From Neolewinella agarilytica (GTDB lineage Bacteria; Bacteroidota; Bacteroidia; Chitinophagales; Saprospiraceae): 64,000 bases of DNA. The translations under genes were made by a program, and so were the position numbers. The stretch lies in the NCBI RefSeq assembly GCF_900110645.1, contig NZ_FOFB01000001.1, positions 372,001 to 436,000 of the forward strand, read 5' to 3'. The notes beneath the pieces are model-generated. The model saw nothing but the letters and a program-made list of their open reading frames with translations. It did not search any database and was not told the origin of the DNA. Within the stretch, counting starts at the first letter, position 1. Each line of letters opens with the position of its first letter. Positions 2,556 to 48,890 of the stretch are shown here, one piece after another.

Positions 2556-3869
2556 ATGACCGACAATGGAACCTTCATCGTTGAAGGAGGGCATAAGCTC
2601 TCCGGCGAAATCATCCCACAGGGCGCTAAGAACGAAGCGCTACAGATCATCAGCTGCTGTCTGATGACGCCCGAGCCCGTATTACTTGAGAACCTACCTG
2701 ACATCCTAGACGTCAATAAACTACTCGACCTGCTGGCGGGCCTAGGCGCAGAGGTTGATCGAATAGACCGGCAAACGGTGCGCATCACGGCTAAGAACAT
2801 CGACGTAGAGTACATGCTGAGCAAGGAATACGTGAGTGATGCCCAGCGCATTCGTGGCTCCGTCATGCTCATTGCGCCCATGCTGAACCGCTACGGCCGC
2901 GCTACCCTGCCCAAACCTGGCGGCGATAAGATTGGCCGCCGCCGACTGGACACCCACCTGCTCGGCCTGCAGGCCCTCGGCGGAGACTTTCAGTACGACG
3001 CCGACCGCCACATCTATACCTTCACCACCAAGGGGTTAAAGGGCACGTACATCCACATGGATGAGATCAGCGTCACCGGCACCGCCAATGTCGTAATGGC
3101 AGCGGCCCTGGCCGATGGCGAAACCACGATCTACAACGCCGCCTGCGAACCTTACCTGCAACAGCTCTGTAAGATGCTGAACCGGATGGGCGCTAAGATT
3201 GAAGGCATCGGCTCTAACCTCCTGAAAATCCAGGGCGTCGACAGCCTCGGCGGCACCGAACACCGGATGCTGCCCGACATGATCGAGATCGGCTCCTTCA
3301 TCGGTATGGCCGCCATGACGGGCTCGGACATTACGATCAAAGACTGCTCCATACAGAACCTCGGCATCATCCCCCGCACCTTTGAACGGATGGGGATTAC
3401 CCTGAACATGAAGGGCGACGACATTCACATTCCCGCCCACGACCATTACGAAATTCAGAGCTTCATTGACGGTGGACTGATGACCATCTACGATGCTCCC
3501 TGGCCCGGCTTCACGCCGGACCTGATGAGTATCTGTCTCGTCACGGCCATTCAGGCTCGCGGCTCCGTACTCATCCACCAGAAGATGTTCGAGAGTCGGC
3601 TCTTCTTCGTCGATAAGCTCATCGACATGGGTGCTCAGATCATCCTCTGTGACCCGCACCGAGCCACCGTGATCGGGATGGATCGCCGGGCGCCGCTGCG
3701 CGGCATCTCGATGTCCAGCCCCGACATTCGTGCCGGTGTCTCTCTCCTCATTGCCGCCCTCTCCGCTGAAGGCACCAGCCGGATCGATAACATCCATCAG
3801 ATCGACCGGGGGTACCAGGATATTGACGGGCGACTGCGGGCTTTGGGAGCTTCTATAGTAAGGGAGTAA
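2556..3869 (+). CDS. murA: UDP-N-acetylglucosamine 1-carboxyvinyltransferase
   Basis: MurA transfers enolpyruvate from PEP to UDP-GlcNAc, the first committed step of peptidoglycan synthesis, in the cytosol. The 437-residue product has the family length and starts with FIVEGGHKLSG and PQGAKNEALQ. The ATG at 2556 is chosen over one at 2502 because the family starts here and a -7 box lies just upstream. The active-site loop reads PKPGGDKIGRRRLDTH: the usual catalytic Cys (Cys115 in E. coli) is Asp124. Asp at this position is known to give fosfomycin insensitivity in other MurA enzymes. The last codons and the stop lie inside the left arm of a word-array element. Confidence 0.97.
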   Translation: MTDNGTFIVEGGHKLSGEIIPQGAKNEALQIISCCLMTPEPVLLENLPDILDVNKLLDLLAGLGAEVDRIDRQTVRITAKNIDVEYMLSKEYVSDAQRIRGSVMLIAPMLNRYGRATLPKPGGDKIGRRRLDTHLLGLQALGGDFQYDADRHIYTFTTKGLKGTYIHMDEISVTGTANVVMAAALADGETTIYNAACEPYLQQLCKMLNRMGAKIEGIGSNLLKIQGVDSLGGTEHRMLPDMIEIGSFIGMAAMTGSDITIKDCSIQNLGIIPRTFERMGITLNMKGDDIHIPAHDHYEIQSFIDGGLMTIYDAPWPGFTPDLMSICLVTAIQARGSVLIHQKMFESRLFFVDKLIDMGAQIILCDPHRATVIGMDRRAPLRGISMSSPDIRAGVSLLIAALSAEGTSRIDNIHQIDRGYQDIDGRLRALGASIVRE

Positions 3870-4040
3870 GGGAGTAAGGGAGTTAAAGGGAGTAAGGGCA
3901 ATGCAAACTCGAAACCGGACGCTCTCCGCTCAGCAGCCCCATGAAAGGGTGAAAAGAGAATAAGAGATCTATTTTACCTTTACGCTCCGGTTTCTTTAGC
4001 CTCCTTTACTCCCTTAATCATTTATTCCTTTAATCCCCTT
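3857..4040. repeat. Mirror word-array element, AGTAAGGG type
   Basis: The left arm (3857-3898) repeats AGTAAGGG-like 8-9-mers and contains the murA stop codon. The right arm (4002-4040) carries the reverse complement words (CCCTTAATC, CCTTTACTCC) and runs to 5 nt before the DUF4286 start. Between them an inner inverted repeat pairs GAAACCGGA (about 3914) with TCCGGTTTC (about 3985), so the whole unit can fold as one long stem. Confidence 0.7.
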
Positions 4041-8827: not shown

Positions 8828-8832
8828 ACCGA

Positions 8833-8928: not shown

Positions 8929-8972
8929 ATTGCGCCCTAAAATATTCAGCTCCGCAATAGTAACTTAGCCCC

Positions 8973-10475
8973 ATGAAGCATCTACTTCCCCTCTGCCTGT
9001 TCCTGCTGCTGGGCTCAGTCGCATTAAATGCCCAATCCAGTGAGCAAATCACCAGCGACGCCCAAAAAGCACTTGCTGCGTTCGACACCCCCGGCTTCGC
9101 CATTGGCGTCATCAAAGACGGTAAAGTCCTCCTTTCCGAAGGCTTCGGCACCCGCACGGCCGGCAAAGAAGAGACCGTTGACGGCAACACCCTCTTCGCC
9201 ATTGCCTCCAACAGCAAAGCCTTTATTTCCACGGCCATCGTCAAATTACACGAAGAAGGGAAGCTGGACCTGGACGCTCCGGTCCAGACCTACCTCCCCT
9301 ACTTCCAGCTCTATGACGAGTATGTGAGCCAGCACACCACCGTCCGCGACCTACTCTGTCACCGGGTTGGGCTGGGTACTTTCAGCGGCGACGCCATCTG
9401 GTACAAAAGTGATAAGAGCGCGGAGGAGATTGTCCGTCAGATTCGTCATTTGCCGCAGGCTTACGGCTGGCGCGCGGGCTATGGCTACACCAATCTGATG
9501 TTCATCACGGCCGGAGAAGTGATCCGCTCCGTCACGGGCCAAAGCTGGGCGGAATACGTGCGGGAGAACTTCCTCACCCCTCTTGGGATGAGCCGCACCC
9601 AAACCTCTGTCCTCCCCCTATCAAAAATGGACAATGTTGCTACGCCCCACGTCACCCATCGCAACAACCTTCCGCTCAAGATGGCGCCCTGGGAGGCTTC
9701 CGGTGCCGCCGGCGGCATCATCTCCAGCACCAACGACATGCTGCAATGGATGCGGGCACAACTTGGCGAAGGAACGATTGAGGGCAAAGAGATTTTCCCG
9801 GACAAAGTACAGGATCAGACCTTCAAGGTTCACAATGCCTACGGCGGCCAGCTATCTTTCTCCGCCACTGGTTTAGGCTGGTTCATCTACGAGCGGGAGG
9901 GCAAAGCCATCGTTACCCACGGCGGTGGCTACGACGGGATGTATTCCCGGGTACTGATGATCCCTGAGCTGGAGCTGGGCATCGTCGTTTTATCGAACAG
10001 CATGACTGGTTTGTCGTCAGCCCTGGCGAGCCGGGCCCGCGATCTGGCCCTGGGCCTGGATGATGCCAACTGGCTGGCAAAAGCCACTGAAGGGGAGATG
10101 ATCGGACGGGAAAACTGGGATCAGAAATTCGAAGAGCCGAAAGCAAGTCGGGTGTCAGGCACCAGTCCATCCCTAAAGGAAGAAGACATGATCGGCACTT
10201 ACACTGATCCCTTGTTCGGAGAATTTGAAGTAGCCAAAAGCGGTAGCGGCGAGCTGGAACTCCGCTTTGCCGGCAGCCCCCGCCTCAACGCCAACCTCAG
10301 CCACTGGCACTACGACAGCTGGAAGCTCGAATGGCACGAGCCACACGCCTGGTTTGACTTTGGCACGGTGCAATTCCTGAAAAACAACCGGCAGCAGGTA
10401 ACGGGGCTTCGCTTTGATGTGCCGAATGATGATATTTTCTTTGAGGAGCTGGAGCCGGTGAAGGAAAGGAAGTGA
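8973..10475 (+). CDS. Class C beta-lactamase-like serine hydrolase
   Basis: A 500-residue exported protein with an N-terminal signal peptide ending near ALNAQ. Residues of about 30-370 form a beta-lactamase/transpeptidase fold: SNSK (S-x-x-K nucleophile motif) in ASNSKAFISTAI, YTN (Y-x-N) in GYGYTNLMF, and HGGG near the third motif. The C-terminal ~100 residues resemble DUF3471. Members include esterases, D-aminopeptidases and PBP-like proteins, so drug hydrolysis is not implied by sequence alone. It diverges from blaI across a palindromic operator, so BlaI/BlaR control is likely. A TAACTTAG -7-like box ends 4 nt before the ATG. Confidence 0.92.
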   Translation: MKHLLPLCLFLLLGSVALNAQSSEQITSDAQKALAAFDTPGFAIGVIKDGKVLLSEGFGTRTAGKEETVDGNTLFAIASNSKAFISTAIVKLHEEGKLDLDAPVQTYLPYFQLYDEYVSQHTTVRDLLCHRVGLGTFSGDAIWYKSDKSAEEIVRQIRHLPQAYGWRAGYGYTNLMFITAGEVIRSVTGQSWAEYVRENFLTPLGMSRTQTSVLPLSKMDNVATPHVTHRNNLPLKMAPWEASGAAGGIISSTNDMLQWMRAQLGEGTIEGKEIFPDKVQDQTFKVHNAYGGQLSFSATGLGWFIYEREGKAIVTHGGGYDGMYSRVLMIPELELGIVVLSNSMTGLSSALASRARDLALGLDDANWLAKATEGEMIGRENWDQKFEEPKASRVSGTSPSLKEEDMIGTYTDPLFGEFEVAKSGSGELELRFAGSPRLNANLSHWHYDSWKLEWHEPHAWFDFGTVQFLKNNRQQVTGLRFDVPNDDIFFEELEPVKERK

Positions 10476-10560
10476 TGTAGTCGGTAGTGATGTAGTCGGT
10501 AGTAATGTAGTCGGTAGTGCTGTAGTAATGTAGTATTGTAGGCGGTAGTGCTGTTGGGCT
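10476..10560 (+). repeat. One-sided GTAGTCG word array
   Basis: It starts directly after the stop codon of the serine hydrolase and repeats GATGTAGTCGGTAGT-like words with TAATGTAG variants. It has the G-rich polarity seen at other 3' gene ends in this window. No reverse-complement arm follows before the next gene. Confidence 0.6.
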
Positions 10561-10605
10561 AGCAATGCCAGAGCAAGGTTATCTTACTGCCGAAAAAGAA
10601 CTTCT

Positions 10606-11151
10606 ATGAAACAACGTTATTCCCTTCTCCTTTTCGCCCTTTTCCTCCCTTTACTCAGTTTCGCCCAGGATACCGCTTTGCCTATTTTCCCCGACGACTT
10701 CGTCGGCGACTGGGCCGGCGAACTGGAGATTTTCAATGCGGAGGGCAAACGAATGTCCGTCTCGATGGAATTAATCATCCAGCCGATCAACGACACGAGC
10801 TACACCTACACCATCATCTACGGCGAAGATAAAGTGGCGGGTAAGCGCGACTATATCATCGTCCGGGGGGCTGACGGCCCGCACCATTGGGTTTGTGATG
10901 AGCAGAATACCATCTTGCTGGACGGCTACTACCTCGGTGGCGTATACCAGAGTGTATTCACCGTAGCGGGCAACTATTTGACCTCTGACCTGGAATTCCG
11001 GAGAGACCAGCTCCTTTACTCTATCCGCAGTGGAGAAGAAGCCCCGGTCAGAACCACAGGCGACAGCGGTAGCGGTGAGGAAAAAATACCCGCTGTTAAC
11101 TCTTTTTCGGTGAAAGGATTTCAACGTGCCCGCCTGAGTAAATTAGACTAG
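10606..11151 (+). CDS. Secreted protein of unknown function
   Basis: A 181-residue protein with a signal peptide (MKQRYSLLLFALFLPLLSFAQ) and a beta-rich body starting FPDDFVGDWAGELEIF. This resembles small lipocalin-like proteins that begin with a G-x-W strand, but the match is too weak to name a family. The last ~25 residues are basic and low-complexity. A TATCTTAC -7-like box lies about 20 nt upstream. Probably periplasmic or on the outer surface. Confidence 0.75.
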   Translation: MKQRYSLLLFALFLPLLSFAQDTALPIFPDDFVGDWAGELEIFNAEGKRMSVSMELIIQPINDTSYTYTIIYGEDKVAGKRDYIIVRGADGPHHWVCDEQNTILLDGYYLGGVYQSVFTVAGNYLTSDLEFRRDQLLYSIRSGEEAPVRTTGDSGSGEEKIPAVNSFSVKGFQRARLSKLD

Positions 11152-11208
11152 TCAAGACCGAACATTCGCCAGAAGGCCATGCGTTACAGGGAAAACCAAA
11201 TAACGATC

Positions 11209-11883
11209 ATGACCAAATTCTTCCTGGCTTCTGCCATTCTCCTTCTGGCTACCACTATTTCCTATGCGCAGGTAAACGCTTCAGTCGGTGAGGCCTCTGA
11301 CCGTCCGGCCACCACCTACCAGAATGCTCCTGCCTTGCAGAACTTCGTGGCAGGTTTCCCTGAGATCAACGTAGGCTTTCTGCACGTCTACGCCAACCCC
11401 TCCATTGACCCCGAAGAAACCTACCTGATGCGGGGAACAGAAGCCAGCAGCACCCTGAAGGCGCTTCTGCCCGTAGACTTTCAGAAAATGGCCAGAAATA
11501 TGGACGCTAAAGTGTACGGCGCGGCGGCCATTCGTGGCATCAACGAAAATATGTACATCGTAAGGATGGACGGCGCAGAGCAGGACCGCCTGGAATTGTT
11601 TGCCATCCGGGGAAACAAAGTGGTACACTTAAAAACCCTCGCTTACCAGTTCTGTGAAAGCGGAAAGTGTGAACAACTCGACAGCTATATCACTGATGTT
11701 GACGGCGATACCAATCTGGACCTTGTCCAGATTTCCCGCGTTATGCGTAACAGCGGAGTGACCGCGGAAACCAAAAAAGTATTTACCCTTCAGGAGCGGA
11801 ACCGGGAGTGGAAAAAAACAAACCAACTGGAGGTGCCGTGGGAGAGTATCAAATTTTACGACTCCCGCACGGACGACAAGTAA
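11209..11883 (+). CDS. Exported protein of unknown function
   Basis: A 224-residue product whose start is set at ATG 11209 because MTKFFLASAILLLATTISYAQ is a clean signal peptide; an ATG 30 nt upstream would bury it. The body is not recognised. The C-terminal half contains DVDGDTNLDLVQISR, similar to one FG-GAP/EF-like calcium loop, and two Cys residues (FCESGKCEQ). It follows the 10606 gene by 57 nt on the same strand, so they may be co-transcribed, and both end at the strong terminator at 11910. Confidence 0.75.
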   Translation: MTKFFLASAILLLATTISYAQVNASVGEASDRPATTYQNAPALQNFVAGFPEINVGFLHVYANPSIDPEETYLMRGTEASSTLKALLPVDFQKMARNMDAKVYGAAAIRGINENMYIVRMDGAEQDRLELFAIRGNKVVHLKTLAYQFCESGKCEQLDSYITDVDGDTNLDLVQISRVMRNSGVTAETKKVFTLQERNREWKKTNQLEVPWESIKFYDSRTDDK

Positions 11884-11909
11884 GCAACTTCCCCTTTAGG
11901 GTCAGTACG

Positions 11910-11955
11910 ACCGGTGATCCTCCCTTAAAAGCGGGAGGATCACCGGTCTTTTTTT
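11910..11955 (+). terminator. Intrinsic terminator
   Basis: A perfect 15-bp stem (ACCGGTGATCCTCCC and its complement) with an 8-nt loop, followed by a C and seven T residues on the plus strand. It ends the 11209 gene; the next gene is convergent. Confidence 0.95.
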
Positions 11956-11960
11956 AGCCC

Positions 11961-12254
11961 CTACTCTTCTTCCGGGTCTTTTATGCCCAGAAACGGCTTC
12001 AACTCTTTCCAGAGTTTTTCGGAAGGTTCGCTCAGTTGAGGACTCTCTTTGCCTGCCCGATAATTGCTTAGAATATCAAGCAGTACGTTAATGCGTCCTT
12101 CCGTATCGAAGAACTTATTAACGATAGCTACCCGCCGGCTTTCCACCAGGCAATAGCCGGATTGGAAGTTGCCCTTTTCGTAACGGACGGTATAGCCCAA
12201 CTCTTTGGAGAGGGTTTCTAGCTTCTTGAGGCTGTGTTTGGTCATGGATACCAT
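11961..12254 (-). CDS. Small conserved-type protein of unknown function
   Basis: A 97-residue cytosolic protein; the core KKLETLSKELGYTVRYEKGN is followed by a strand with SGYCLVESRRVAIVNKFF. It looks like a compact alpha/beta protein of the kind seen widely in Bacteroidota, but I cannot name the family. The open frame extends 33 codons further, but that part is encoded by a word array (Tyr/Pro/Ile-rich). The start at 12254 is preferred because a TATCTTCG -7 box ends 5 nt before it; ATG 12245 is an alternative. Confidence 0.75.
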   Translation of the reverse strand: MVSMTKHSLKKLETLSKELGYTVRYEKGNFQSGYCLVESRRVAIVNKFFDTEGRINVLLDILSNYRAGKESPQLSEPSEKLWKELKPFLGIKDPEEE

Positions 12255-12259
12255 GGGGG

Positions 12260-12267
12260 CGAAGATA
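12260..12267 (-). promoter_or_regulatory. -7 box of the 11961-12254 gene
   Basis: TATCTTCG on the minus strand, 5 nt before the ATG at 12254, predicting a leaderless transcript. Confidence 0.55.
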
Positions 12268-12312
12268 GTAATGATAGTAGGATAGTAGGGATAGTATGGT
12301 AGTAGACTGTAG
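12262..12312 (-). repeat. One-sided CTACTATC word array
   Basis: On the minus strand this repeats CTACCATACTATCC- and TACTATCATTAC-like words right up to the start of the small gene. It belongs to the same CTACC/ACTAC word group as 27220-27319, 44863-44930 and 48800-48840, with the G-poor strand leading into the start codon. Confidence 0.6.
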
Positions 12313-12404
12313 GGCAGGGTCAGCGGGTTGTTTCTTGTAGAAGTGGGGTTCACTCCATCTTTTTCCTTTGTGGGATTAAGGAGACGGCGTACCTGGGCGC
12401 AGCA

Positions 12405-12414
12405 CGCAGGTGCA
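12405..12414 (-). repeat. TGCACCTGCG motif, copy 4
   Basis: On the minus strand it is followed by TGCT then GCGCCC. Intergenic, about 100 nt upstream of the PorT-like gene. Confidence 0.8.
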
Positions 12415-12503
12415 GAGAAGGTTAAGAAAGCAATGTAGTGGCATTGTCAAGCGTATTACTAAGGTTGGGCCTCTACAACAAGCCCGGTTATTTTTTACCA
12501 AAC

Positions 12504-12511
12504 TATCTTTG
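12504..12511 (+). promoter_or_regulatory. -7 box of the PorT-like gene
   Basis: TATCTTTG is a perfect TAnnTTTG, separated from the ATG at 12516 only by CCCC. Confidence 0.7.
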
Positions 12512-12515
12512 CCCC

Positions 12516-13136
12516 ATGCAAAAGTGGATAATCGTACTACTTGTTTTTCTGGCGGGCACCGGCCTCTCCGCCCAGACCTTCCGGGGTTCGGTGGTGGCGG
12601 GGATGAACATCAGCCAGATCGACGGAGACGCGCTCTTCGGCTTTCACCAGCCAGGTGTCAACGCAGGCCTAAGGGTAGTAGCGATCCTGAACGACCGTTG
12701 GCGGGTCGGGCCGGAGATACTGTTCAGTCAGCAGGGCGCCCAGCGCCCTAACACGAGCGCCAACATCAGTATTTACGACAGCTTCCGGCTCAACACCCTG
12801 GAAGTACCGCTGATGGCTTACTACAAAGACTGGCGCCTCACGGCCGAAGGCGGCTTCAGCTACCAGCGATTGATCAACTATGAGGTTATTGGCGACAATG
12901 GCGAAGACGTAACGGCGCAGACGGATTTGCAGGACAATCTCTTCGCTCTCAAACTCGGGGCAACGATCTACTTTTCGCCCAATTGGGGCTTGAACGTCCG
13001 CTGGTCAAAGCATATTCTGGATATTGACGTAGACAACGGCATCAATACTTCTTTCAAGGGGCGTTCGGTAAGTGTCCGCGCAGTATATACCTTTGGCGCT
13101 GGTGAATCCTTGCCCAAACCAATTGATCCGGAATGA
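12516..13136 (+). CDS. PorT-family outer-membrane beta-barrel protein
   Basis: A 206-residue protein with a signal peptide (ends GTGLSAQ) and alternating hydrophobic strands typical of OMP_b-brl_2/PorT-like barrels: VVAGMNISQIDGD, VGPEILFSQQGA, LEVPLMAYYKDWRL, and a final RSVSVRAVYTFGA strand. It is predicted to sit in the outer membrane; the role is unknown. ATG 12516 is chosen from the signal peptide and the adjoining -7 box. Its stop overlaps the next start (ATGA), so it is translationally coupled to the 13133 lipoprotein. Confidence 0.88.
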   Translation: MQKWIIVLLVFLAGTGLSAQTFRGSVVAGMNISQIDGDALFGFHQPGVNAGLRVVAILNDRWRVGPEILFSQQGAQRPNTSANISIYDSFRLNTLEVPLMAYYKDWRLTAEGGFSYQRLINYEVIGDNGEDVTAQTDLQDNLFALKLGATIYFSPNWGLNVRWSKHILDIDVDNGINTSFKGRSVSVRAVYTFGAGESLPKPIDPE

Positions 13137-13627
13137 TACAACGATGTCTTGCCTCTCTGCTTTTTATAAGCCTTCTTTGCACCTGCGGTCCCTCGCCCGA
13201 AAACGAAACGGTGGCTGCTGATCCGGTGGCTGCTCCTACAAGCGCAACCTCGTCACAAACCGCCTTCCCCTCCATTCCCCTGGAACGCCTGCAGTACATT
13301 TTCGAGAACGCGACCTATATGGATGCGACTTTTTACAATCTCCCCATCTCGATTAACCAAAGCGAGCTGCCCCAGATTCAGGCCACCATCGGAGGTATTG
13401 CCGAGGCGACCATGCCACTGGAAGCCGGCTGTACCGCCATCGGCCACATCTGGTTTCAGGTGAATGGCAAGAATATTGAAGAGGCCGATATTTTCTACAA
13501 CGAAAAGTGCGTCGGTTATCTGTGGTACGAGAATGGCAAGCCTGCTTATTCGAATATGATGACCGAGGAAGGCTTCAACTTTTATGCGAATATTTTCGCG
13601 CAGGTGCAATCACAAACGCCGCAGTAG
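13133..13627 (+). CDS. Lipoprotein of unknown function
   Basis: A 164-residue protein with a lipoprotein signal (LLFISLLCTCG) and a low-complexity Ala/Pro/Thr linker, then a soluble domain with one Cys pair candidate (AGCTAIGH and NEKCVGY). It overlaps the PorT-like gene by 4 nt, so the two products may work together at the outer membrane. The lipobox is itself encoded by a TGCACCTGCG copy. Family not recognised. Confidence 0.8.
   Translation: MIQRCLASLLFISLLCTCGPSPENETVAADPVAAPTSATSSQTAFPSIPLERLQYIFENATYMDATFYNLPISINQSELPQIQATIGGIAEATMPLEAGCTAIGHIWFQVNGKNIEEADIFYNEKCVGYLWYENGKPAYSNMMTEEGFNFYANIFAQVQSQTPQ
13178..13187 (+). repeat. TGCACCTGCG motif, copy 5
   Basis: Followed by GTCCCT then CGCCC. 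It encodes the Cys-Thr-Cys lipobox region of the lipoprotein. Confidence 0.8.
13599..13608 (-). repeat. TGCACCTGCG motif, copy 6
   Basis: Inside the 3' end of the lipoprotein gene, on the minus strand. The GCGCC tail is absent in this copy. Confidence 0.7.
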
Positions 13628-13640
13628 AACTTTGGCATGT

Positions 13641-13738
13641 TGGTATTTTGGTTCTTTGGGCTGCCGCCTACAAAATGCGGCAGCCCAAAGAACCAAAATA
13701 CCAAAGAACCAAAACACCAACTGACCAAAGAACCAAAC
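13641..13738. repeat. Mirror word-array element, ACCAAAGA type, with perfect 27-bp stem
   Basis: 13641-13667 is the exact reverse complement of 13677-13703, around the 9-nt loop CTACAAAAT. The stem holds the core GGGCTGCCGC/GCGGCAGCCC plus flanking words. The right arm continues to 13738 as an 8-nt periodic array (ACCAAAAT, ACCAAAGA, ACCAAAAC, ACCAACTG, ACCAAAGA), ending directly at the ppx ATG. Confidence 0.9.
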
Positions 13739-14644
13739 ATGCCCACCCGCCGCGCCGTAATTGACCTCGGCAGTAACACCTTCCACTTATTGATTGCCGA
13801 CCTCGATGAGGAAGGCGTTCTACGGGATGTATATCGCGAACGGATTTACGTTAAACTTGCCTCGGAGGGTATTGCCACCATCGGAGATACTCCTTTCGCG
13901 CGCGGAATTGCTGCGCTCCAGCATTTCCGCCGGGTCCTTGACAAATACGGCGTCAGCCAGCTGAAAGCAATCGGCACAGCGGCGTTGCGGACGGCCTCCA
14001 ACGGGCCCGCCTTCATTCTCTTAGCCAGGCGCGAAGCCAATATTTCCATTGAATTGATCTCGGGCGACGAAGAGGCCCGCCTGATTACCCAAGGGGTGCT
14101 GGCGGCCATTCCTCCGGTTCAGGAGCGGGTGTTGATTATGGACATCGGTGGTGGATCTACGGAGTTCATCATCGCCGGCCCGGCCGGCGTGCACTGGCAA
14201 CAGTCTTTCCCCATCGGGGTGTCCGTGCTGCATAATGGTTTTCACCATTCCGACCCCATATCGGCGGGAGAAATCTATCAGCTTGAGGACTTCCTGCTGG
14301 AGCAAACTGCCCCGCTCGCTGCCGCACTGCGGCAGTTCCCGACCCATCACCTGATCGGTGCAGCGGGCACCTTTGACGTATTAGCCGAGGCCCTCAAAGA
14401 CCCTGACGCCCCACTCCACCCCAGCAGTCATCAACTTAATCTTTCGGGGCTGGACGAGCTCTCCGACCGCATCATTGCCGCCAACATGGCAGAGCGCCTG
14501 GCCATGGAGGGTATTCCCGATCAGCGGGCCGACCTGGTCGTAGTAGCCATGATTCTGCTACGGTTTACTTTCAAGCTCGCGAGCATTGACCGGGTGACGG
14601 TGAGTGACTGGGCGATGAAGGAAGGGGTGTTGTTGGGTGGGTAG
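13739..14644 (+). CDS. Ppx/GppA family phosphatase
   Basis: A 301-residue cytosolic protein with the ASKHA motifs VIDLGSNTFHLLIADL (phosphate 1) and IMDIGGGSTEFI (phosphate 2). The family hydrolyses polyphosphate and/or pppGpp; at ~300 residues it is the short form without the C-terminal HD domain of E. coli GppA. The frame extends upstream through the hairpin element (Lys/Pro/Asn-rich), but homology begins at MPTRRAVIDLG, so ATG 13739 is used. No polyphosphate kinase gene is nearby. Confidence 0.9.
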   Translation: MPTRRAVIDLGSNTFHLLIADLDEEGVLRDVYRERIYVKLASEGIATIGDTPFARGIAALQHFRRVLDKYGVSQLKAIGTAALRTASNGPAFILLARREANISIELISGDEEARLITQGVLAAIPPVQERVLIMDIGGGSTEFIIAGPAGVHWQQSFPIGVSVLHNGFHHSDPISAGEIYQLEDFLLEQTAPLAAALRQFPTHHLIGAAGTFDVLAEALKDPDAPLHPSSHQLNLSGLDELSDRIIAANMAERLAMEGIPDQRADLVVVAMILLRFTFKLASIDRVTVSDWAMKEGVLLGG

Positions 14645-14760
14645 AGGCAGGACCGGACGCTCGAAGGTCCCGGAATCATCATTACCTCAAGATATTTTTT
14701 AGTTCCCAGCAACCCTATTACCACGGTGGCGCGTTACTCAAAAGCAAAGAACCCCGTTAC

Positions 14761-16071
14761 ATGGCAACTGAAAACGAATTAAACGAACTGCGAAGAGCAT
14801 TGGAGGCATCACCGGACAATGTGTACCTCCGCCGTCTTCTCATCAATAAACTAAGGGGAGTAGCTGGCTACGAGCAGGAACTGGAAGGACACTTGAACGT
14901 CCTTATCCGCAAAGAACCCCGGGATCTGGAGCTGAAGGAAGCCCTGATCGAGGTCTACTTCGCCCAAAAGAAATACTCTACCTGCCTGATCATCTTCGAA
15001 GAGATTGGCAATCCGGATTACATCAGTCCGGAAACCCGGTTACTCGTTGCCAAAAGCTACCTCAAAGACGGAGACCAGGGCCGCGCCGGAGAGGTCTACC
15101 GCTCCGCCATTGAGGAAGACCCTACGCTGGAAGACGAGGAGCTCGACAAAGAATTTCGCCTCAGCGGAGACTTCGATTTGGGAGAGCTGGAGCTCGAAGA
15201 AGACGACCTGCGTGTAATGGACAAGCCTACGACCAAGTTTGCCGACGTTGGCGGCATGGACGGCGTGAAGCGGGAAATTGACCTGAAGATCATTCAGCCG
15301 CTGCAACATACGGAGCTGTATAAAAGCTACGGTAAAAAGGTGGGCGGCGGCATTTTACTGTACGGGCCTCCGGGATGCGGGAAGACTTTCATTGCCCGGG
15401 CTACCGCCGGGCAGATCGACGCCAACTTCATCAACGTTGGCCTGAACGACATCCTCGACATGTGGGTCGGCAACAGCGAGAAACAGCTGGCCGGATACTT
15501 TGAATTAGCCCGGGAGAAAAAGCCCTGTGTACTCTTCTTCGACGAAGTGGATGCCCTGGGAGCTAAGCGCAGCGATATGCGGCAGAGCGCCGGGCGCAAC
15601 GTCATCAATCAGTTTTTGTCGGAGCTTGACGGCGTAGACAAAGACAACGACGGCATCCTCGTTATCGGCGCCACGAACGTACCCTGGCACCTGGACACGG
15701 CCTTCCGCCGGCCGGGACGCTTCGACCGGATCATCTTCGTCCCGCCGCCCGATGAGGCCGGCCGGGAAGCGATCTTCAGACTCAAGATGGAGGGTAAGCC
15801 ACAGGATAAAATCGACTACGCGAAGCTGGCCAAAAAAGCCAAAGACTTCAGTGGTGCTGACATCAACGCCGTAATCGACATTGCCGTAGAGGGAATCCTC
15901 GAAGAGGCCATCCGCACCGGAGCTCCCCGCCCCGTAGGCACCAAAGACCTGTTGGGAGGCATCGAAAAGCACCGCCCCTCAACGGCCGAATGGTTTACTA
16001 CTGCCCGGAATTACGCTATGTTTGCCAACAAAGGCGGGCTATATGACGATATTCTTAAATACATGAAATAG
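14761..16071 (+). CDS. AAA+ ATPase with N-terminal TPR-like region
   Basis: 436 residues. About 1-130 are helical TPR-like repeats and 130-155 is a very acidic linker. The rest is one AAA module of the p97/FtsH-like class: DVGGMDGVKREI, Walker A GPPGCGKTF, Walker B VLFFDEVDA, and the SRH with GATNVPWHLDTAFRRPGRFDR (Arg finger). No protease or membrane segment is seen. A TPR membrane protein follows on the same strand, so a TPR-guided unfoldase acting at the membrane is a reasonable guess. Exact role unknown. Confidence 0.9.
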   Translation: MATENELNELRRALEASPDNVYLRRLLINKLRGVAGYEQELEGHLNVLIRKEPRDLELKEALIEVYFAQKKYSTCLIIFEEIGNPDYISPETRLLVAKSYLKDGDQGRAGEVYRSAIEEDPTLEDEELDKEFRLSGDFDLGELELEEDDLRVMDKPTTKFADVGGMDGVKREIDLKIIQPLQHTELYKSYGKKVGGGILLYGPPGCGKTFIARATAGQIDANFINVGLNDILDMWVGNSEKQLAGYFELAREKKPCVLFFDEVDALGAKRSDMRQSAGRNVINQFLSELDGVDKDNDGILVIGATNVPWHLDTAFRRPGRFDRIIFVPPPDEAGREAIFRLKMEGKPQDKIDYAKLAKKAKDFSGADINAVIDIAVEGILEEAIRTGAPRPVGTKDLLGGIEKHRPSTAEWFTTARNYAMFANKGGLYDDILKYMK

Positions 16072-16076
16072 CTTTT

Positions 16077-16218
16077 TGGTTCGTTGGTCTTTTGGTTCTT
16101 TGGGCTACCGCACGTGGAAGACGTGACAGGCGTACTAATGAACCGTCCATTGCCGCCTACAAAATGCGGTAGCCCGAAAGACCAACAGACTAAAAGACCA
16201 ACGAACCAACAGACCAAA
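16077..16218. repeat. Mirror word-array element with extended core
   Basis: The left arm (GGTTCGTTGGTCTTTTGG words) ends in GGGCTACCGCA. The right arm begins TGCGGTAGCCC (16165) and continues as GACCAAC-, AAAAGACCAAC- and GAACCAAC-like words. Between them a ~52-nt insert ends in CCGCCTACAAAA, the same sequence that forms the loop side of the 13641 element. Same word set as 13641-13738 and 47542-47677. Confidence 0.85.
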
Positions 16219-16227
16219 TCCTCCCCC

Positions 16228-17487
16228 TTGCCCCTCTCCTTCCCCGCTCTAATTGAACGCCTCAACATCCTGCAACAGCAATCCCGCTGGCAGGACTGCA
16301 AGGAATTGCTGGAATCCTACCTGGCGGACTCTCCGGATGACAGCATAGCACAACTCTACTACGTCAATACCCTGACCAATCTCGGCGAGAAAAAACTGGC
16401 GCGGGAGCTCATTGAGCCGATGCTGGAAGAAAGCCCTGATGACCCGCACGTATTGCGATTGGCGGCGATCATTGAGTTGAATGACGACAAGCCTAAAGTG
16501 GCCGAAAAGTTCGCCGCCCTGCTGGTGGAAATGAACCCGGAGGACGACGATGCCCACACGCTGATGGCGAAGGTTAAGCTAGACCAGCGGAACTACGACG
16601 CCGCCCTGCAGTATATCGATCAGGCACTCGCGCTCGACCCCGAAAACCAGGAAGCACTCAACTTCAAAATATACATCAGTGGTTTCCTCGGTAAATCCGA
16701 CACGCATCAGGCCCTGCAGGACGCGTTAAACCTCAACCCGGAAGACAGCGGTACGGTGGCCAACCATGGCTATCAGCTGCTGCGGGAAGGAAAAGTAAAG
16801 GAAGCGCTCGAGCGGGTTAAATATGCCCTCAGCCTCAACCCGGAAAACCAGCTGGCGAAATACGTCATGGTGGAGGCGCTGAAGGCCCGCTTCTGGCCCT
16901 ACCGGATGTACTTCAAATACAAAGAAGCGATGGCCAAGTTGTCGGGTGGTGCCAGTTTTGGCGTCATGATTGGTCTGTGGTTTGGAGTCAACTGGCTCAA
17001 CCGCCTGGGCGCGAACAACCCGGATCTGGCTCCCTTCACGACGCCGGTGGTTTACTTCATGGTGGCACTCTTTTTACTGACCTGGATCATTGATCCAATC
17101 ATGAACTTCTACCTGCTAACCAACCCCTACGGCCGGTTTTTGCTGGACGACGATGACAAGCTAATGGCCCGGTTGGTAGGTGGCTCGCTGGGGCTTGCTC
17201 TCCTGTCTTTAGCCGCCTGGTTTGGCACAGGTCTTTTCACCTTTCAGGCGCTGGCTTTTGCCTTCCTGGTGCTTACCATTCCCCTGGGCAGTTTCCTGCG
17301 GCCCATCCGCAAGAATCAGCGGATGATTCTAACGGTTTACACCATCGCCCTGGCGGTGACGGGCATCAGCGCCATCCTGCTGGAGCAAGGTTTCCTGATC
17401 AACGTCGCGCTCTTCGGCCTGCTGGCCTACCAGTTCATCATCAACGGAATGATGGCGCGGGAAGGAGGACGGACGTTCGGGGAGTAA
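16228..17487 (+). CDS. TPR membrane protein
   Basis: About 419 residues: N-terminal TPR repeats (about 1-210; AALQYIDQALALDPENQEAL is typical), then roughly six membrane segments to the C-terminus (VMIGLWFGVNWL, VVYFMVALFLLTWII and so on). The family is not recognised; the C-terminal part recalls Yip1-like membrane domains only in general shape. The start is proposed as TTG 16228, because the frame upstream is encoded by the repeat element. Cytosolic TPRs on a membrane anchor next to a TPR-AAA+ ATPase suggest the two proteins interact. Confidence 0.75.
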   Translation: MPLSFPALIERLNILQQQSRWQDCKELLESYLADSPDDSIAQLYYVNTLTNLGEKKLARELIEPMLEESPDDPHVLRLAAIIELNDDKPKVAEKFAALLVEMNPEDDDAHTLMAKVKLDQRNYDAALQYIDQALALDPENQEALNFKIYISGFLGKSDTHQALQDALNLNPEDSGTVANHGYQLLREGKVKEALERVKYALSLNPENQLAKYVMVEALKARFWPYRMYFKYKEAMAKLSGGASFGVMIGLWFGVNWLNRLGANNPDLAPFTTPVVYFMVALFLLTWIIDPIMNFYLLTNPYGRFLLDDDDKLMARLVGGSLGLALLSLAAWFGTGLFTFQALAFAFLVLTIPLGSFLRPIRKNQRMILTVYTIALAVTGISAILLEQGFLINVALFGLLAYQFIINGMMAREGGRTFGE

Positions 17488-17505
17488 AGAACGTGGGCGA
17501 CGGAG

Positions 17506-17515
17506 CGCAGGTGCA
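17506..17515 (-). repeat. TGCACCTGCG motif, copy 7
   Basis: Followed on the minus strand by CTCCGT then CGCCC, identical over 21 nt to the copy at 22840. Intergenic, downstream of the TPR membrane protein gene. Confidence 0.8.
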
Positions 17516-17554
17516 ATGAACGCCCGGCGAACGCTGCTTCCAGCAGCGACCGGA

Positions 17555-17633
17555 CAAAGCGGCTTCCAGACGCGCTACCCGCTTACCGCGCGTACAGAGT
17601 ACGCTTCGGGCCGATGCGTGCGGAGCGTACGCC
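17555..17633 (+). repeat. Direct repeat, left copy
   Basis: About 80 bp starting CAAAGCGGCTTCCAG and containing GCGCTACCC, a GTAC-rich palindrome (GCGTAC-AGA-GTACGC) and GCGGAGCG...TACGCC. It is repeated in the same orientation at 18267-18350; together they bracket the 17641 lipoprotein gene. Confidence 0.75.
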
Positions 17634-17640
17634 GGGCACG

Positions 17641-18153
17641 TTACCTTTCAAAGAGGTACATCCTGCAGTTAATATCGTCAATAATACTCCTTCTGGAGAT
17701 TTGAAAATTCATAAAACCGTCCCAGCGGATATTGAGGCTTTTAGTCGGTCGGGTGAAGGAGTTCAGCACAAGCTGCCCTTCTACGTAAAAGAAGGTAAAT
17801 CGGCGATTAAACCTACCCCGGGTATCACAGTTAAAGGCAAAGGTTCCTTCGTCTTCGTAAAAAATGGTTTCCGTGGAATCCGCACTAACTACGAAGTAGG
17901 TCGATTCGATGTGATAGGTACTGTCTTCTCTGAGTTCGAGCAAAAACTGAAAACAATTGTCCCCGATACATTCCGGTGTGTCATCGCAGGTCAGACCAGC
18001 TGTATACCAGCTATTGATTAATACTTCAGGTAATTCACCAGCACAGGGAGTCGAGGAGTTTTCATTAATCGTCATCTCTTCCTCTTCCTGAAAGAGGCTG
18101 CAGGAGATTAAGGAAAGCAGCAGGACGCCCAAAGAAATACGAATAATGCTCAT
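17641..18153 (-). CDS. Lipoprotein of unknown function
   Basis: A 170-residue product; ATG 18153 is chosen because MSIIRISLGVLLLSLISCS is a lipoprotein signal, and TATCTTAC (a -7-like box) lies 4 nt upstream. The mature part has several Cys residues (LTCDDTPECIGDNC; NINCRMYL-type ends) and beta strands reading like a lipocalin-type 'stress description' protein (LLELREDSTYHIEST), but I cannot assign a family. The gene sits alone between two ~80-bp direct repeats, opposite in strand to its neighbours, suggesting an inserted cassette. Confidence 0.75.
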   Translation of the reverse strand: MSIIRISLGVLLLSLISCSLFQEEEEMTINENSSTPCAGELPEVLINSWYTAGLTCDDTPECIGDNCFQFLLELREDSTYHIESTYFVVSADSTETIFYEDEGTFAFNCDTRGRFNRRFTFFYVEGQLVLNSFTRPTKSLNIRWDGFMNFQISRRSIIDDINCRMYLFER

Positions 18154-18266
18154 TCCTGTAAGATAAGCCCACGGTTCGCTTATAGTAGAAAGATTAAAGT
18201 GTCCGAAACTAATTTGTCGGTTATTCGACAATGATAAGTCAACGGGTAGTCAGGGCTTATCCTCGC

Positions 18267-18350: not shown

Positions 18351-18412
18351 AGACCAACCTTTCCCCGCCAGAACCGTTCCCTTCTCGTAACTCCACGGAA
18401 TCAATTATCCTC

Positions 18413-19450: not shown

Positions 19451-19455
19451 GTAGG

Positions 19456-19590
19456 GTATCAGGGTGCAAGTTGCAGGGTGCAGGTTGCAGGTTGCAGGTT
19501 GCAGACGTTGCAGGTTAATCTTGCAACCTGCAACCTGTACCTTGCAACCCGCAACCCGTACCTTGCAACCTGCAACCCGCAACCTGATAC
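19456..19590. repeat. Mirror word-array element, TGCAACC type
   Basis: Outer ends pair exactly (GTATCAGG and its complement). The left arm is AGGTTGC-type words; the right arm has 7-nt periodic units TGCAACC, CGCAACC and, at about every third unit, TGTACCT/CGTACCT/TGATACT. It fills almost the whole gap: 5 nt after the TraB/GumN stop and 8 nt before the argB start. The same words recur at 37559-37727. Confidence 0.9.
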
Positions 19591-19598
19591 TTGACCCC

Positions 19599-26607: not shown

Positions 26608-27225
26608 ATGACTCCTTCACCTAAGAGTATATTAATTATTGAAGACGAGGCAGTTATTGCCATGGAGATTGAAGCCGCCCTGCGGTCTCTCGGTTATCGC
26701 ATCGCGGGTAAGGCCCGTAATGGCGACAAAGCTCTCGACCTGCTGGCCAGCACAAAGCCCGATCTTGCGCTGCTGGACATTGAACTTAAGGGCACCCTCA
26801 ACGGCATTGACCTGGCGCGCATTATCCGGGAGAAGTACAACTTCCCCTTTGTTTTCCTGACCGCTTTCTCTGACCGGGCAACACTGGACTCCTTGCGGGA
26901 CACCCTACCCTACGGCTATATCGTCAAGCCCTTCAACGAAAGCGACCTGTACACCACCATTGAAATCGCCCTGGATAAATTTGCCGCTGAGCAAGCCCCC
27001 GTTTTCCCTACTATCCTTTCTCTCAACGAGCGGCTTAAGGAGCCGCTCACCGAACGGGAATACGAAACACTTCAACTACTCGACGAAGGTCTCTCCTACC
27101 GTGAAATCGGCGAGCGGCTCTTCCTGAGCGTCAACACCGTAAAATCTTACCAGAAAAATCTGTTTGCCAAAATCGGGGCTTCTTCCCGCCATCAGGCAGT
27201 CAGTTGGGTGAGAGGGGGGCGGTAG
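26608..27225 (+). CDS. Response regulator, REC plus LuxR-type HTH
   Basis: 205 residues: a receiver domain (ILIIEDEAVIAMEIEAAL; phospho-acceptor Asp in LALLDIELKG; Lys in YIVKPF), then a linker and a GerE/LuxR helix-turn-helix (LTEREYETLQLLDEGLSYREIG ... VNTVKSYQKNLFAKIG). ATG 26608 is preferred over GTG 26602; TTACTTTG (-7-like) ends 5 nt before it. A histidine kinase follows, separated only by a word-array element, and is the probable partner. Two TCACCC-N4-GGGTGA dyads upstream suggest autoregulation and control of the divergent LRR gene. Confidence 0.92.
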   Translation: MTPSPKSILIIEDEAVIAMEIEAALRSLGYRIAGKARNGDKALDLLASTKPDLALLDIELKGTLNGIDLARIIREKYNFPFVFLTAFSDRATLDSLRDTLPYGYIVKPFNESDLYTTIEIALDKFAAEQAPVFPTILSLNERLKEPLTEREYETLQLLDEGLSYREIGERLFLSVNTVKSYQKNLFAKIGASSRHQAVSWVRGGR

Positions 27226-27319
27226 TATGGTAGACGGTAGTGTTGTAAGTGCAAATGCGGGACTGGACTATTCATCCAGGTCTCTACCGTTCTACCGTCT
27301 ACAGTTCTACCGTCTACCG
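27220..27319. repeat. Mirror word-array element, CTACCGT type
   Basis: The left arm (27220-27240, GGTAGTATGGTAGACGGTAG) contains the response regulator stop codon. The right arm (27284-27319) repeats CTACCGT-type words. Inner CTGGA...TCCAG pairs at about 27262-27279. It ends 29 nt before the kinase start. Confidence 0.8.
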
Positions 27320-36029: not shown

Positions 36030-37559
36030 ATGAACTTGGATTTCCTTCAGGAACTAGGCCTCAAAGCTGACAACGACGGCACCAGCACCGGCCAAACCAG
36101 CCACCACAATTCTGCAGAGCACATTGCTTCTTACAGCCCCGTTGACGGTAAGCTGATTGGCAAAGCAAGCGTTACGACTAAAGATCAGTACGAAGCGGTC
36201 ATTCAGACGGCTCAGACCGCCTTCAAACACTGGCGCACGGTACCGGCTCCTCAGCGGGGGGAAATCGTTCGTCAATATGGTGATGCACTACGCCAACACA
36301 AGGATGCTCTTGGCCGCCTGGTTTCCTACGAAATGGGCAAAAGCCTGCAGGAAGGTTGGGGTGAAGTACAGGAAATGATTGACATCTGCGACTTTGCCGT
36401 AGGCCTGAGCCGCCAGCTGTACGGTCTGACGATGCATTCCGAACGTCCTATGCACCGCATGTATGAGCAGTGGCACCCGCTGGGCATTGTTGGTATCATT
36501 TCTGCCTTCAACTTCCCCGTTGCCGTATGGAGCTGGAACAGCATGATTGCCCTGGTTTGTGGCGACGTGACCGTTTGGAAGCCTTCCGAAAAAGCCCCCA
36601 TGTGTGGCATTGCCTGCCAGAACATCTGGGCGAAGGTGGCTAAAGACAACGACCTGCCCGAAGGCATTAGCAGCCTCGTGAATGGCGATTACAAAATCGG
36701 CGAATACATGACCAAAGACGGCCGGGTTCCGCTGGTCTCTGCCACCGGCTCTACCCGAATGGGTAAGATCGTAGCACAGACTGTTGGCGCACGCCTCGGA
36801 AAGTCTCTTCTCGAATTGGGCGGTAATAACGCAATCATCATCACGGAGACGGCGGATATGGACCTCGTCCTGACCGGCGCGCTCTTCGGCGCCGTAGGTA
36901 CTTGTGGTCAGCGTTGTACTTCCACCCGCCGCCTCATTGTTCACGAAAGCCGCTACAACGAAGTTCGCGACAAACTCAAGGCTGCCTACGGTCAGCTTCG
37001 CATTGGAGATCCGCTGGACACCAACAATCACGTGGGCCCGCTGATCGATAAAGACAGTGTCAATACTTACCTCAAAGCCATTGAAAGCATTAAGGCCGAA
37101 GGCGGCAAAACGGTCGTCGATGGTGGTGTATTGGAAGGCCCCGGTTACGAGAGTGGCTGCTACGTAAAGCCCTGCTTCTTCGAAGTAAAGGCTGACAGCA
37201 AAATGGCTCAGCACGAAACCTTCGCTCCCATTCTGTACATCATGCCTTACTCTACACTGGAGGAAGCCATCGAGATCCAGAACAGTGTGCCCCAGGGGCT
37301 CAGCTCTGCGATCATGACGACCAACATGCGGGAGAGCGAACTCTTCCTCAGCACGGCTGGCTCTGACTGCGGAATTGCCAATGTTAACATCGGCACTTCC
37401 GGTGCCGAGATTGGCGGTGCCTTCGGTGGTGAAAAGGAAACTGGTGGTGGCCGCGAGTCCGGCTCCGATAGCTGGAAGGCTTACATGCGCCGGCAGACGA
37501 ATACCATCAACTACTCAACGACCCTGCCATTGGCGCAGGGGATTAAGTTTGATTTGTAG
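36030..37559 (+). CDS. Aldehyde dehydrogenase, ALDH7 (aminoadipate semialdehyde) type
   Basis: 509 residues. NAD-dependent oxidation of an aldehyde to the acid, cytosolic. Motifs: GIISAFNFPVAVWSWNS (cofactor site), ELGGNNAIII (catalytic Glu) and GTCGQRCTSTRRL with the catalytic Cys. The ELGGNN and QRCTSTRR forms are typical of the ALDH7/alpha-aminoadipic semialdehyde group, pointing to lysine breakdown. No lysine-degradation neighbours are present, so the substrate is inferred. The TGCAACC-type word array starts at its stop codon. Confidence 0.93.
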   Translation: MNLDFLQELGLKADNDGTSTGQTSHHNSAEHIASYSPVDGKLIGKASVTTKDQYEAVIQTAQTAFKHWRTVPAPQRGEIVRQYGDALRQHKDALGRLVSYEMGKSLQEGWGEVQEMIDICDFAVGLSRQLYGLTMHSERPMHRMYEQWHPLGIVGIISAFNFPVAVWSWNSMIALVCGDVTVWKPSEKAPMCGIACQNIWAKVAKDNDLPEGISSLVNGDYKIGEYMTKDGRVPLVSATGSTRMGKIVAQTVGARLGKSLLELGGNNAIIITETADMDLVLTGALFGAVGTCGQRCTSTRRLIVHESRYNEVRDKLKAAYGQLRIGDPLDTNNHVGPLIDKDSVNTYLKAIESIKAEGGKTVVDGGVLEGPGYESGCYVKPCFFEVKADSKMAQHETFAPILYIMPYSTLEEAIEIQNSVPQGLSSAIMTTNMRESELFLSTAGSDCGIANVNIGTSGAEIGGAFGGEKETGGGRESGSDSWKAYMRRQTNTINYSTTLPLAQGIKFDL

Positions 37560-37727
37560 CAGGTTGCAGGGTGCAGGGTGCAGGTTGCAGGTTGCAAAAT
37601 TTACGGGTTGTAGTGCTACAAAGGCATTACAACCCGTCTTTTTTTTGCTTAACTCTCCTCAAATAAAACAATGCTCAAAAGGTGAGTAACAGTGGCAACC
37701 TGCGAACTCGCAACCTCCCACCTGCCC
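37559..37727. repeat. Mirror word-array element, TGCAACC type, split
   Basis: The left arm (37559-37597) has AGGTTGCAGGGTGC words directly after the dehydrogenase stop. The right arm (about 37695-37727) has GGCAACCTGCGAACTCGCAACC. An intrinsic terminator sits between them. Same word group as 19456-19590. Confidence 0.75.
37603..37646 (+). terminator. Intrinsic terminator
   Basis: ACGGGTTGTA...TACAACCCGT, a perfect 10-bp stem with a 15-nt loop, then C and eight T residues on the plus strand. It ends the aldehyde dehydrogenase transcript. Confidence 0.92.
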
Positions 37728-44862: not shown

Positions 44863-44930
44863 GTAGCAGTATACCGCTCTCTTTGGCGGTAACTACTACA
44901 ATACTACCGGACTACATTACTACACTACTA
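44863..44930. repeat. Word-array element, CTACTAC type, short left arm
   Basis: GTAGCAGTATACCGC pairs with GCGGTAACTACTAC around an 8-nt loop, giving a TACCGC/GCGGTA core as in the other elements. The right arm continues as ACTACTACAATACTACCGG-type words to 4 nt before the GNAT start. Confidence 0.7.
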
Positions 44931-45516: not shown

Positions 45517-45750
45517 GTGGTCTTGTAGTCTTGTAGGCCTGTAAGCTACCGCACGTGGGAGGCCTTGGAGGGTACCGCTCATTGGAGGCGATCAAATTTA
45601 CTGATTCGGGCAATCAACATGAGATTTGCTCAAGGGATAAAACATCCTCTGCGTCCTCCCCTACCTCTGCGTACATCTGCGTGAAAACATCCCGTCGCGA
45701 AGCGACAAAAATCTCGCTTCCAAAATGCGGCAGCCCACAAGCCTACTCCT
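45517..45750. repeat. Mirror word-array element with long insert
   Basis: The left arm (CTTGTAGTCTTGTAGGCCTG words) starts after the GNAT stop and ends in GCTACCGCACG. The right arm AAAATGCGGCAGCCC then ACAAGCCTAC contains the stop codon of the convergent ybbR gene (45743-45745). The ~165-nt insert shares GAGGCCTTGGAGG with the 47542 element and has a small TCGC-GAA-GCGA hairpin near 45700. Confidence 0.75.
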
Positions 45751-47541: not shown

Positions 47542-47677
47542 TTTTTGGTTCTTTAGTTCGTTGGCTCGTTAGTATTTTGGAGCTACCGCACATTGAGGCC
47601 TTGGAGGCCATTACGCCTGTAGCACCCAGCCTCCTACAAAATGCGGTAGCTCCAAAGACCAAAGAACCAGAGTACCA
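47542..47677. repeat. Mirror word-array element with extended core
   Basis: Left arm GGTTCTTTAGTTCGTTGGC words, then GGAGCTACCGCA. The insert has GAGGCCTTGGAGG. Right side CCTACAAAATGCGGTAGCTCC then AAAGACCAAAGAACC words, ending 3 nt from the stop codon of the 47681 gene. Same word set and core as 13641-13738 and 16077-16218. Confidence 0.85.
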
Positions 47678-48794: not shown

Positions 48795-48802
48795 CGAATA
48801 TA
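48795..48802 (-). promoter_or_regulatory. -7 box of the 47681-48790 gene
   Basis: TATATTCG on the minus strand, 4 nt before the ATG. Confidence 0.5.
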
Positions 48803-48890
48803 GTACGGTAGTATGGTAGTGTGGTAGTATGGTGGTAGGATAGTCAGGGCAGGCGTAAGCTCATCAGACACCCGAGCTTACGATTGCCCT
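48800..48890. repeat. CTACC-type word array plus hairpin
   Basis: On the minus strand, CTACCATACTACC-type words lead to the gene start. Behind them AGGGCA-GG-CGTAAGCTC pairs with GAGCTTACG-AT-TGCCCT (48846-48890; 15 pairs around one 2x2 mismatch). The array words match 12262-12312 and 27220-27319. Confidence 0.65.

Follow-up and report, generated by a model that had tools for sequence, protein, structure and literature searches.

Tandem heptamers that are mostly noncoding, G-rich and polarised have been described in Xanthomonas and Nostoc (Rehm et al. 2015; PMC4692102). According to the parts of that paper drawn on here, they lie almost exclusively nearer the 5' neighbouring ORF, in either orientation, and are under-represented between divergent ORFs; inverted pairs number 70 and 75 in two Xanthomonas genomes and only a few in Nostoc, and sister species mostly carry the heptamers at the same gene borders with differing lengths. 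A second account, likewise drawn on in part, places arrays of the word TAACTGA in Beggiatoaceae, cyanobacteria and Bacteroidetes (five Bacteroidetes; MacGregor 2015; PMC4679880). In the open-access literature we found no account of such repeats for Lewinella or Saprospiraceae and none of intergenic octamers, and earlier descriptions could exist. Here we analyse a gene border of Neolewinella agarilytica, lying in a 64,000-nt stretch of its genome (hereafter the window), together with similar elements elsewhere in this genome and in its relatives.

The element at the ppx border

A gene of 164 aa with no Pfam match (13133..13627, stop TAG at 13625-13627) is separated by a spacer of 111 nt from the start at 13739 of a Ppx/GppA phosphatase gene (13739..14644; PF02541, E 4.7e-48); both genes, and all window features below, are given on the forward strand. 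The spacer is almost wholly one element. It opens with TTGG-type 8-mers (13632..13659; TTGGTATT, TTGGTTCT and TTGG on the outward strand), recognised from the sequence and the inverted repeat and absent from the TRF list, and continues with a left core half, GCTGCCGC (13660..13667), a 9-nt hairpin loop, CTACAAAAT (13668..13676), which lies within TACAAAATGCGGYAGC, and a right core half, GCGGCAGC (13677..13684). CCAA-type 8-mers then run from 13685 to 13738, directly before the ATG (TRF periods 8/16/24 over 13685-13737). The original prediction had described 8-mer words reaching the ppx start and a 27-bp stem; the words are present as stated and 13641-13667 is the exact reverse complement of 13677-13703, while the inverted-repeat scan and the RNA fold add one further pair, giving a perfect stem of 28 bp (13640..13667 with 13677..13704). 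The left arm falls below the TRF threshold and the element is therefore counted as unpaired below, such that TRF-based pairing is an undercount.

As RNA, 13625-13741 folds with a minimum free energy of -57.1 kcal/mol (z -10.98), and 0 of 200 dinucleotide shuffles reached so low a value. A terminator scan of 13400-16400, a region that includes a similar element at 16.1 kb, listed no intrinsic terminator at 13640-13738, and the sequence 3' of the stem is A/C-rich. An Rfam search of 13000-20500 returned nothing over the gathering score, the sub-threshold matches being to microRNA precursors only and falling on long stems. The ppx frame is open through the right array to an in-frame ATG at 13637 in the left arm (ORF 13637-14644). 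The start at 13739 is nonetheless the likelier one, judged from alignments, because full-length homologues align from residue 1-5 of that start. Read on the opposite strand, the left arm (13632-13659) ends in CCAACATGCC and resembles an array that enters a start codon elsewhere in the genome (contig C30 at ~55.1 kb, also CCAACATGCC); it looks as if this half had been copied along with a start codon.

Other borders in the window carry related features, as had been proposed, and the window contains 14 merged TRF arrays that belong to the 7/8 type (defined below). Two further TTGG elements have a core variant, GCTACCGC/GCGGTAGC, unlike that of the ppx site. One (16075..16218) consists of a TTGG array, a core half at 16104-16111, a 54-nt insert, a core half at 16166-16173 and a CCAA array; the other (47543..47676; core halves at 47582-47589 and 47643-47650) is found at the same place in a sister genome (G009). 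A core pair with left words GTAGTCTT occupies 45545..45734. Inverted pairs were found by TRF and inverted-repeat scanning for the GGTTGCA family (19454..19598, without a core) and for the GTAGACG family (27220..27319). TRF also gave left and right arrays of the GTAAGGGA family (3857..4035), a GTAGTCGGTAGTAATG array 3' of a stop codon (10471..10554) and a GGTTGCA array immediately 3' of a stop codon (37559..37596; counted as unpaired). A ACTACAAT-type array lies immediately 5' of a start codon (44892..44930) and a GTAGTATG array upstream of a minus-strand gene (48801..48844), and G009 has arrays at the same places. Separately, a TGCACCTGCGTTTGCGCCC-like motif recurs by eye in spacers of this genome and its relatives, for example at 8912-8940 and 12392-12421.

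Word families, polarity and pairing across the genome

The sample read comprises 2.015 Mb including the window, or 32% of the 6.22-Mb genome (G000), with genes taken from our own codon-usage calls, in which stops are surer than starts. Here 413 TRF rows merged into 269 noncoding arrays within 297 kb of noncoding DNA, 226 of them of the 7/8 type (period divisible by 7 or 8, or equal to 9, 15, 17, 22 or 23), as compared with 209 merged arrays, 110 of this type, in 1718 kb of coding DNA. One dinucleotide shuffle of 1097 spacers gave 15 TRF rows versus the 413 observed (spacers of <40 or >2500 nt are excluded from spacer counts). By extrapolation the whole genome would hold approximately 700 such arrays. 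In 851 kb, inverted repeats scoring at least 14 were present in 80 of 436 intergenic regions, a count that also takes in other palindrome families and ordinary hairpins, versus a single one of the 436 when each had been dinucleotide-shuffled once.

At least eight word families are present, the main outward words being GGTTGCA, TTGGTTCT, GTAGTCTG, GTAGTATG, GTAGACG, AATGAGGG, AGTCAAGC and GATTCTC. Several are built from a nearly constant block followed by a variable one, as in AGTCA (92-100% constant) plus three variable letters. GGG is absent from the commonest words of the GGTTGCA, TTGGTTCT, GTAGTCTG and GTAGACG families and present in AATGAGGG, GTAAGGGA and AGTCAGGG words. Mismatches concentrate in some word columns (1496 versus 1196 +/- 25 after permutation, in 50 arrays), which could mean recognition by something, although duplicated variant units give the same signal. 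Arrays are more regular in their gene-proximal third than in their loop-side third (0.743 versus 0.676, p 4e-4; 127 of the 150 classified arrays), a pattern that fits either growth or constraint at the gene end.

Two repeats of other kinds were met in the same genome. One, with perfect 23-bp stems, AGCGATCAGCGGACAGCATTCAG, and an 11-nt loop, is dispersed over the 851 kb scanned as six copies with identical stems (C27:111865-111921, C27:152142-152198, C30:163504-163560, C55:115234-115290, C41:207861-207917 and C37:171769-171825) plus one diverged copy, and has a relative in G009 (L019; ~90% identity over 139 nt). The other, at C27:220399-221058, is a cluster of 22-nt repeats around CTCCGTGCACCTCTGTG and is not of the 7/8-nt word kind.

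The arrays are polarised. Each family has an outward strand, directed away from the gene that flanks the array, as seen for 131 of 150 classified arrays, where the word lists were drawn up after the arrays had been seen, the sign of each family is a free choice and the remaining 76 of the 226 arrays, which fitted no word list, are excluded. The outward strand is the G-richer one in most listed families (though not in GATTCTC, and AGTCAAGC is balanced), and polarity is alike in co-directional, convergent and divergent spacers. The arrays are also anchored to gene edges: 63 of 78 stop-side arrays have their outer end no more than 10 nt from the stop codon (mean 10.4 and maximum 21 in 2000 random placements) and 31 of 72 start-side arrays have it equally close to the start codon (mean 10.3, maximum 18), and only 5 of the 150 come as close to the opposite gene edge. 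Array-bearing spacers make up 62/358 and 54/355 of the two co-directional sets, 32/161 of the convergent and 21/223 of the divergent spacers (divergent 21/223 versus other 148/874, Fisher p 0.005). In array-free spacers, C exceeds G before starts (GC skew -0.35 in the last 10 nt) and the skew is near zero after stops.

Where two arrays lie within 300 nt of each other they generally form an inverted pair: 25 of 29 such pairs are of the same family in outward..inward order, one is of the same family on the same strand, three are mixed and none is reversed. Core pairs of the form GCTRCCGC..GCGGYAGC number 17 (in 16 elements), with none in the opposite order; their inserts range from 9 to 281 nt, and a core pattern with a fixed gap gave 0 matches. 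The genome-wide arrangement that had been anticipated, in which words, core, insert, core and complementary words follow one another at gene borders, is supported, with 16 paired-core elements in 2.015 Mb. Nor is this a matter of few copies with no conserved core, since the whole genome contains 12 copies of TACAAAATGCGGYAGC and 0 of its reversed control. Arrays without a core also exist, including many of the GGTTGCA family, as do core halves with arrays that have no partner. Arrays with no listed partner (99) outnumber those with one (51) and keep the outward polarity in 90 of 99 cases; for 67 of the 91 that have room, the spacer holds no complementary stretch (score at least 12). Spacers with a classified pair are not significantly enriched among non-divergent ones (23/874 versus 1/223 divergent, Fisher p 0.067).

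The arms of a locus match at the level of the family. Arm similarity is 0.54 within a locus, 0.568 with another locus of the same family and 0.131 with another family. Permuting arms within families gave p 0.48 for 25 array pairs and p 0.92 for 16 GGTTGCA pairs, and for the core elements 0.46 at 12 nt, 0.57 at 16, 0.38 at 20, 0.63 at 24 and 0.93 at 32, in a test that used the nine of 16 elements with both arms of TTGG type. By eye, two of the 16 core elements have arms from different word families. Correction of one arm by the other through within-locus template switching was considered and is unsupported by these permutations. The ppx hairpin had been singled out as the cleanest member of its kind, but its perfect stem is not special: since same-locus arms match no better than arms of the same words elsewhere, the stem at 13640 is a lucky draw from a small common lexicon and not a product of arm-to-arm correction.

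The same borders in related genomes

A homologue of the 164-aa gene stands beside ppx in 11 of the 19 other genus genomes that have a full-length ppx match, and no such array is present in any of those 11 spacers (eight measured at -4 to 149 nt, three read). Different species have different words at one and the same gene border. Between the AAA and TPR genes there are TTGG words in G000, GTTGCAG words in G004 and AACTCAGT words in G007. At the G004 border GTTGCAG words follow the AAA stop immediately, CAACCTG words immediately precede the TPR gene and ~450 nt separate the two, and the G007 border combines its words with GCTGCCG..GCGGTAGC. The AAA-TPR spacers of six further loci (L102, L105, L106, L107, L108 and L111) hold no 7/8 array, those of L106 and L107 holding other repeats. 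TRF also detects related GGTTGCA-type arrays in loci of G002 and G004. An exact 26-mer from a GGTTGCA array was found in 1 of 295 class genomes, namely its own, in a sample with just eight others of the same order and none of the genus. The 18-nt core is present in ten named stretches of other genomes, from Neolewinella aurantiaca, five Lewinella-labelled MAGs and four others (Shewanella, a saccharibacterium, an oscillospiraceous MAG and an opitutalean MAG); the matches in these last four may be due to chance.

The sister genome G009 is 55% complete, and most of its aligned blocks are 82-89% identical to G000. Same-family arrays stand at several of the same borders in the two genomes, with lengths changed. 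One array pair was found only in G009 (L167), in a block of 68-76% identity that makes its orthology less sure. At C41:226808-226988 (aligned to L163), the AACCTGC array of G009 is broken in G000 by the palindrome TCCCGCAGTACTGCGGGA. Searching G009 with window positions 3001-23000 gave short dispersed-repeat matches only, and this region seems to be absent from the incomplete assembly. As regards MITEs, for which terminal inverted repeats and a target-site duplication are expected, the core halves are inverted but the arrays blur the ends, and no duplication was noticed in a non-systematic look at the sister alignments.

At one locus a half has been replaced between the sister species. In the alignment at C30:55.1-55.3 kb (L024 6795-7060 with C30:55081-55340), CTAC words stand before the start codon in G009 and CCAA words before that same codon in G000, with the second halves of the 8-mers largely retained (xAGA, CGAA, AAGA). 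The CTAC half of G009 is 98% identical over 49 nt to a half at another G000 locus (L012), and the order xAGA-xGAA-xAGA is frequent in both word types. Because of this match elsewhere and the order common to both, copying of a half-element from another locus would be a simpler reading of the alignment than a concerted change of the constant block.

Possible origins and relation to described repeats

Our preferred reading, held tentatively and at a little under an even chance, is that the ppx hairpin is one member of a set of directional repeats that occupy spacers throughout the genome, grew by slippage and spread as half-elements, its RNA hairpin being a by-product or secondary. The unit would be a half-element, comprising a degenerate array of 7-8-nt words with its outer end at the gene edge and an inner end that may carry a core half GCGGYAGC; two halves of the same family facing each other would make an inverted pair. 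Arrays would grow and shrink through polymerase slippage, halves would pass from spacer to spacer through templated copying, whether as gene conversion or as insertion, and selection would purge arrays from coding sequence and partly from promoters. Transcribed with co-directional or convergent genes, the two halves of such a pair would form a stem-loop immediately 3' of the stop codon, which may hinder 3' decay or read-through, an effect that we treat as secondary. This copying model has the weakness that no copying enzyme emerged from the candidates checked (Y1 transposase and RVT_1). Neutral copying alone also leaves unexplained why the same strand faces outward at gene edges, including in the 90 of 99 partnerless arrays, and none of the readings offered here fully explains that rule at arrays lacking a partner. 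For reverse transcriptase as the copying candidate, which was rejected, G000 has one RVT_1 match, and such matches are scattered over 12 of 21 genus genomes with none in the array-bearing G007.

A possible but less probable alternative is that the elements are selected mRNA stem-loops, in which a long hairpin right after the stop shields the mRNA upstream of it against 3' exonucleases and keeps co-directional genes insulated from one another. The very stable fold of the ppx element, the rarity of arrays in divergent spacers (21/223) and the common family of both arms would all follow, but arms match no better within loci than within families (p 0.46 for core elements at 12 nt, p 0.92 for GGTTGCA pairs), partnerless arrays predominate, mostly with no complementary stretch in the spacer, and the enrichment of classified pairs in non-divergent spacers is not significant. 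If the hairpins were instead ordinary intrinsic terminators plus chance, their position 3' of stop codons would be natural; this is hardly credible given the terminator scan at 13640-13738, the A/C-rich sequence after the stem and start-side arrays (72) about as frequent as stop-side ones (78). It is unlikely that the gene-ward strand is the functional one, its G-poor regular words giving an unstructured leader before starts and a Rho-loading or protein site against antisense entry at stops. Such an inward signal accounts for the mirrored polarity of gene starts and stops in each of the four gene contexts, is in line with the excess of C over G before starts in array-free spacers, and suits the constant-plus-variable words of several families. 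Against it, the skew after stops in those spacers is about zero, GATTCTC-family arrays read GAGAATC on their inward strand, which is not C-rich, arms of the same family are not required, and a literature search gave no direct support for the role of Rho.

The nearest analogy offered at the outset was with REP/BIME elements mobilised by a RAYT, and the palindromic core, the intergenic sites, the inverted pairs and the GTAG words that abut the core in one word family do point that way. The genome has five Y1_Tnp genes (L030-L034), and in none of the five loci is a core half accompanied by a word array in the 1.5 kb on either side of the match. A AGTCAGGG array lies ~0.27 kb from the Y1_Tnp frame of L032 and a ATTCACTC array ~1.3 kb from that of L031, but two stray arrays in 16 kb around these genes are about what chance would give from the genome-wide density. 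L033 has two GCTACCGC 8-mers, inside that locus's own different repeats. A tag of the GTAG/CGTC kind at the palindrome foot is present in GTAG-word elements and missing in TTGG-word elements, and core pairs occur in a single order, 17 to 0. Membership of the RAYT-REP system is not supported, because 0 of 5 Y1 transposase genes are flanked by core-plus-array elements, and the proposed kinship through a tyrosine transposase is very unlikely. As a separate observation, several Y1_Tnp genes adjoin their own, different palindromic repeats (e.g. GACGCTATGCGTCGA near L033 and GCGGCTTCCAGCCGC near L034). A quite improbable further possibility is directional rewriting, in which new spacer DNA is synthesised starting at the gene edges and working inward, as short words in which one constant block can give way to another throughout an array, for instance if 3' ends at broken spacers were extended from a short repeat template and then joined. 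If true, it would explain the outward strand at edges, the same-family pairs, the edge anchoring and the species-specific words at one border. A general rule is left needing a cause, namely that one strand faces away from the gene; growth, loss and word exchange can be measured directly in sister species that differ at orthologous borders.

Set against the described systems, in each case from the parts of the source drawn on here, the arrays differ in several ways. TAACTGA arrays are likewise intergenic heptamers near start codons and are sometimes missing from the same spacer of a close relative, but involve one fixed word, with one inverted repeat in the main genome and no core reported in those parts (PMC4679880). 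The P6b stem-loop of Nostoc trnL shares degenerate 7-nt words and a word class that is replaced while the stem persists, although at a single site in a group I intron as opposed to the dispersed gene-border elements seen here (PMC4476775). GTAG/CGTC REPs and REPtrons are also intergenic palindromes, often in opposite pairs and mostly between co-directional or convergent ORFs, whereas arrays of 7-8-nt words are no part of them as described there, and no RAYT association was found for the elements here (PMC3733652).

The nearest described kind is the polarised heptamer array of Xanthomonas and Nostoc, with which the arrays share noncoding concentration, polarity, edge preference, inverted pairs, depletion between divergent genes and length change between species (PMC4692102). 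The original prediction that the structure matches no known element class was thus too strong, and because the heptamers of Rehm et al. are, in the parts drawn on, polarised and placed at gene edges in nearly the same way, form inverted pairs and change in length between species, we do not regard it as a separate class. Those heptamers are of a single motif type with GGG tracts that forms quadruplexes in vitro, four units being preferred, whereas the present genome has at least eight families of 7 or 8 nt, four of them without GGG in their commonest words, with tighter edge anchoring and a common core in some loops (PMC4692102). Polarised 7-8-nt edge arrays are thereby found in a lineage unrelated to Xanthomonas and Nostoc, with many parallel word sets in one genome, which argues against single-motif explanations such as one quadruplex sequence. 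What is new here relative to those systems is the parallel word families, the species-specific words at one gene border and the core common to some of the loops.
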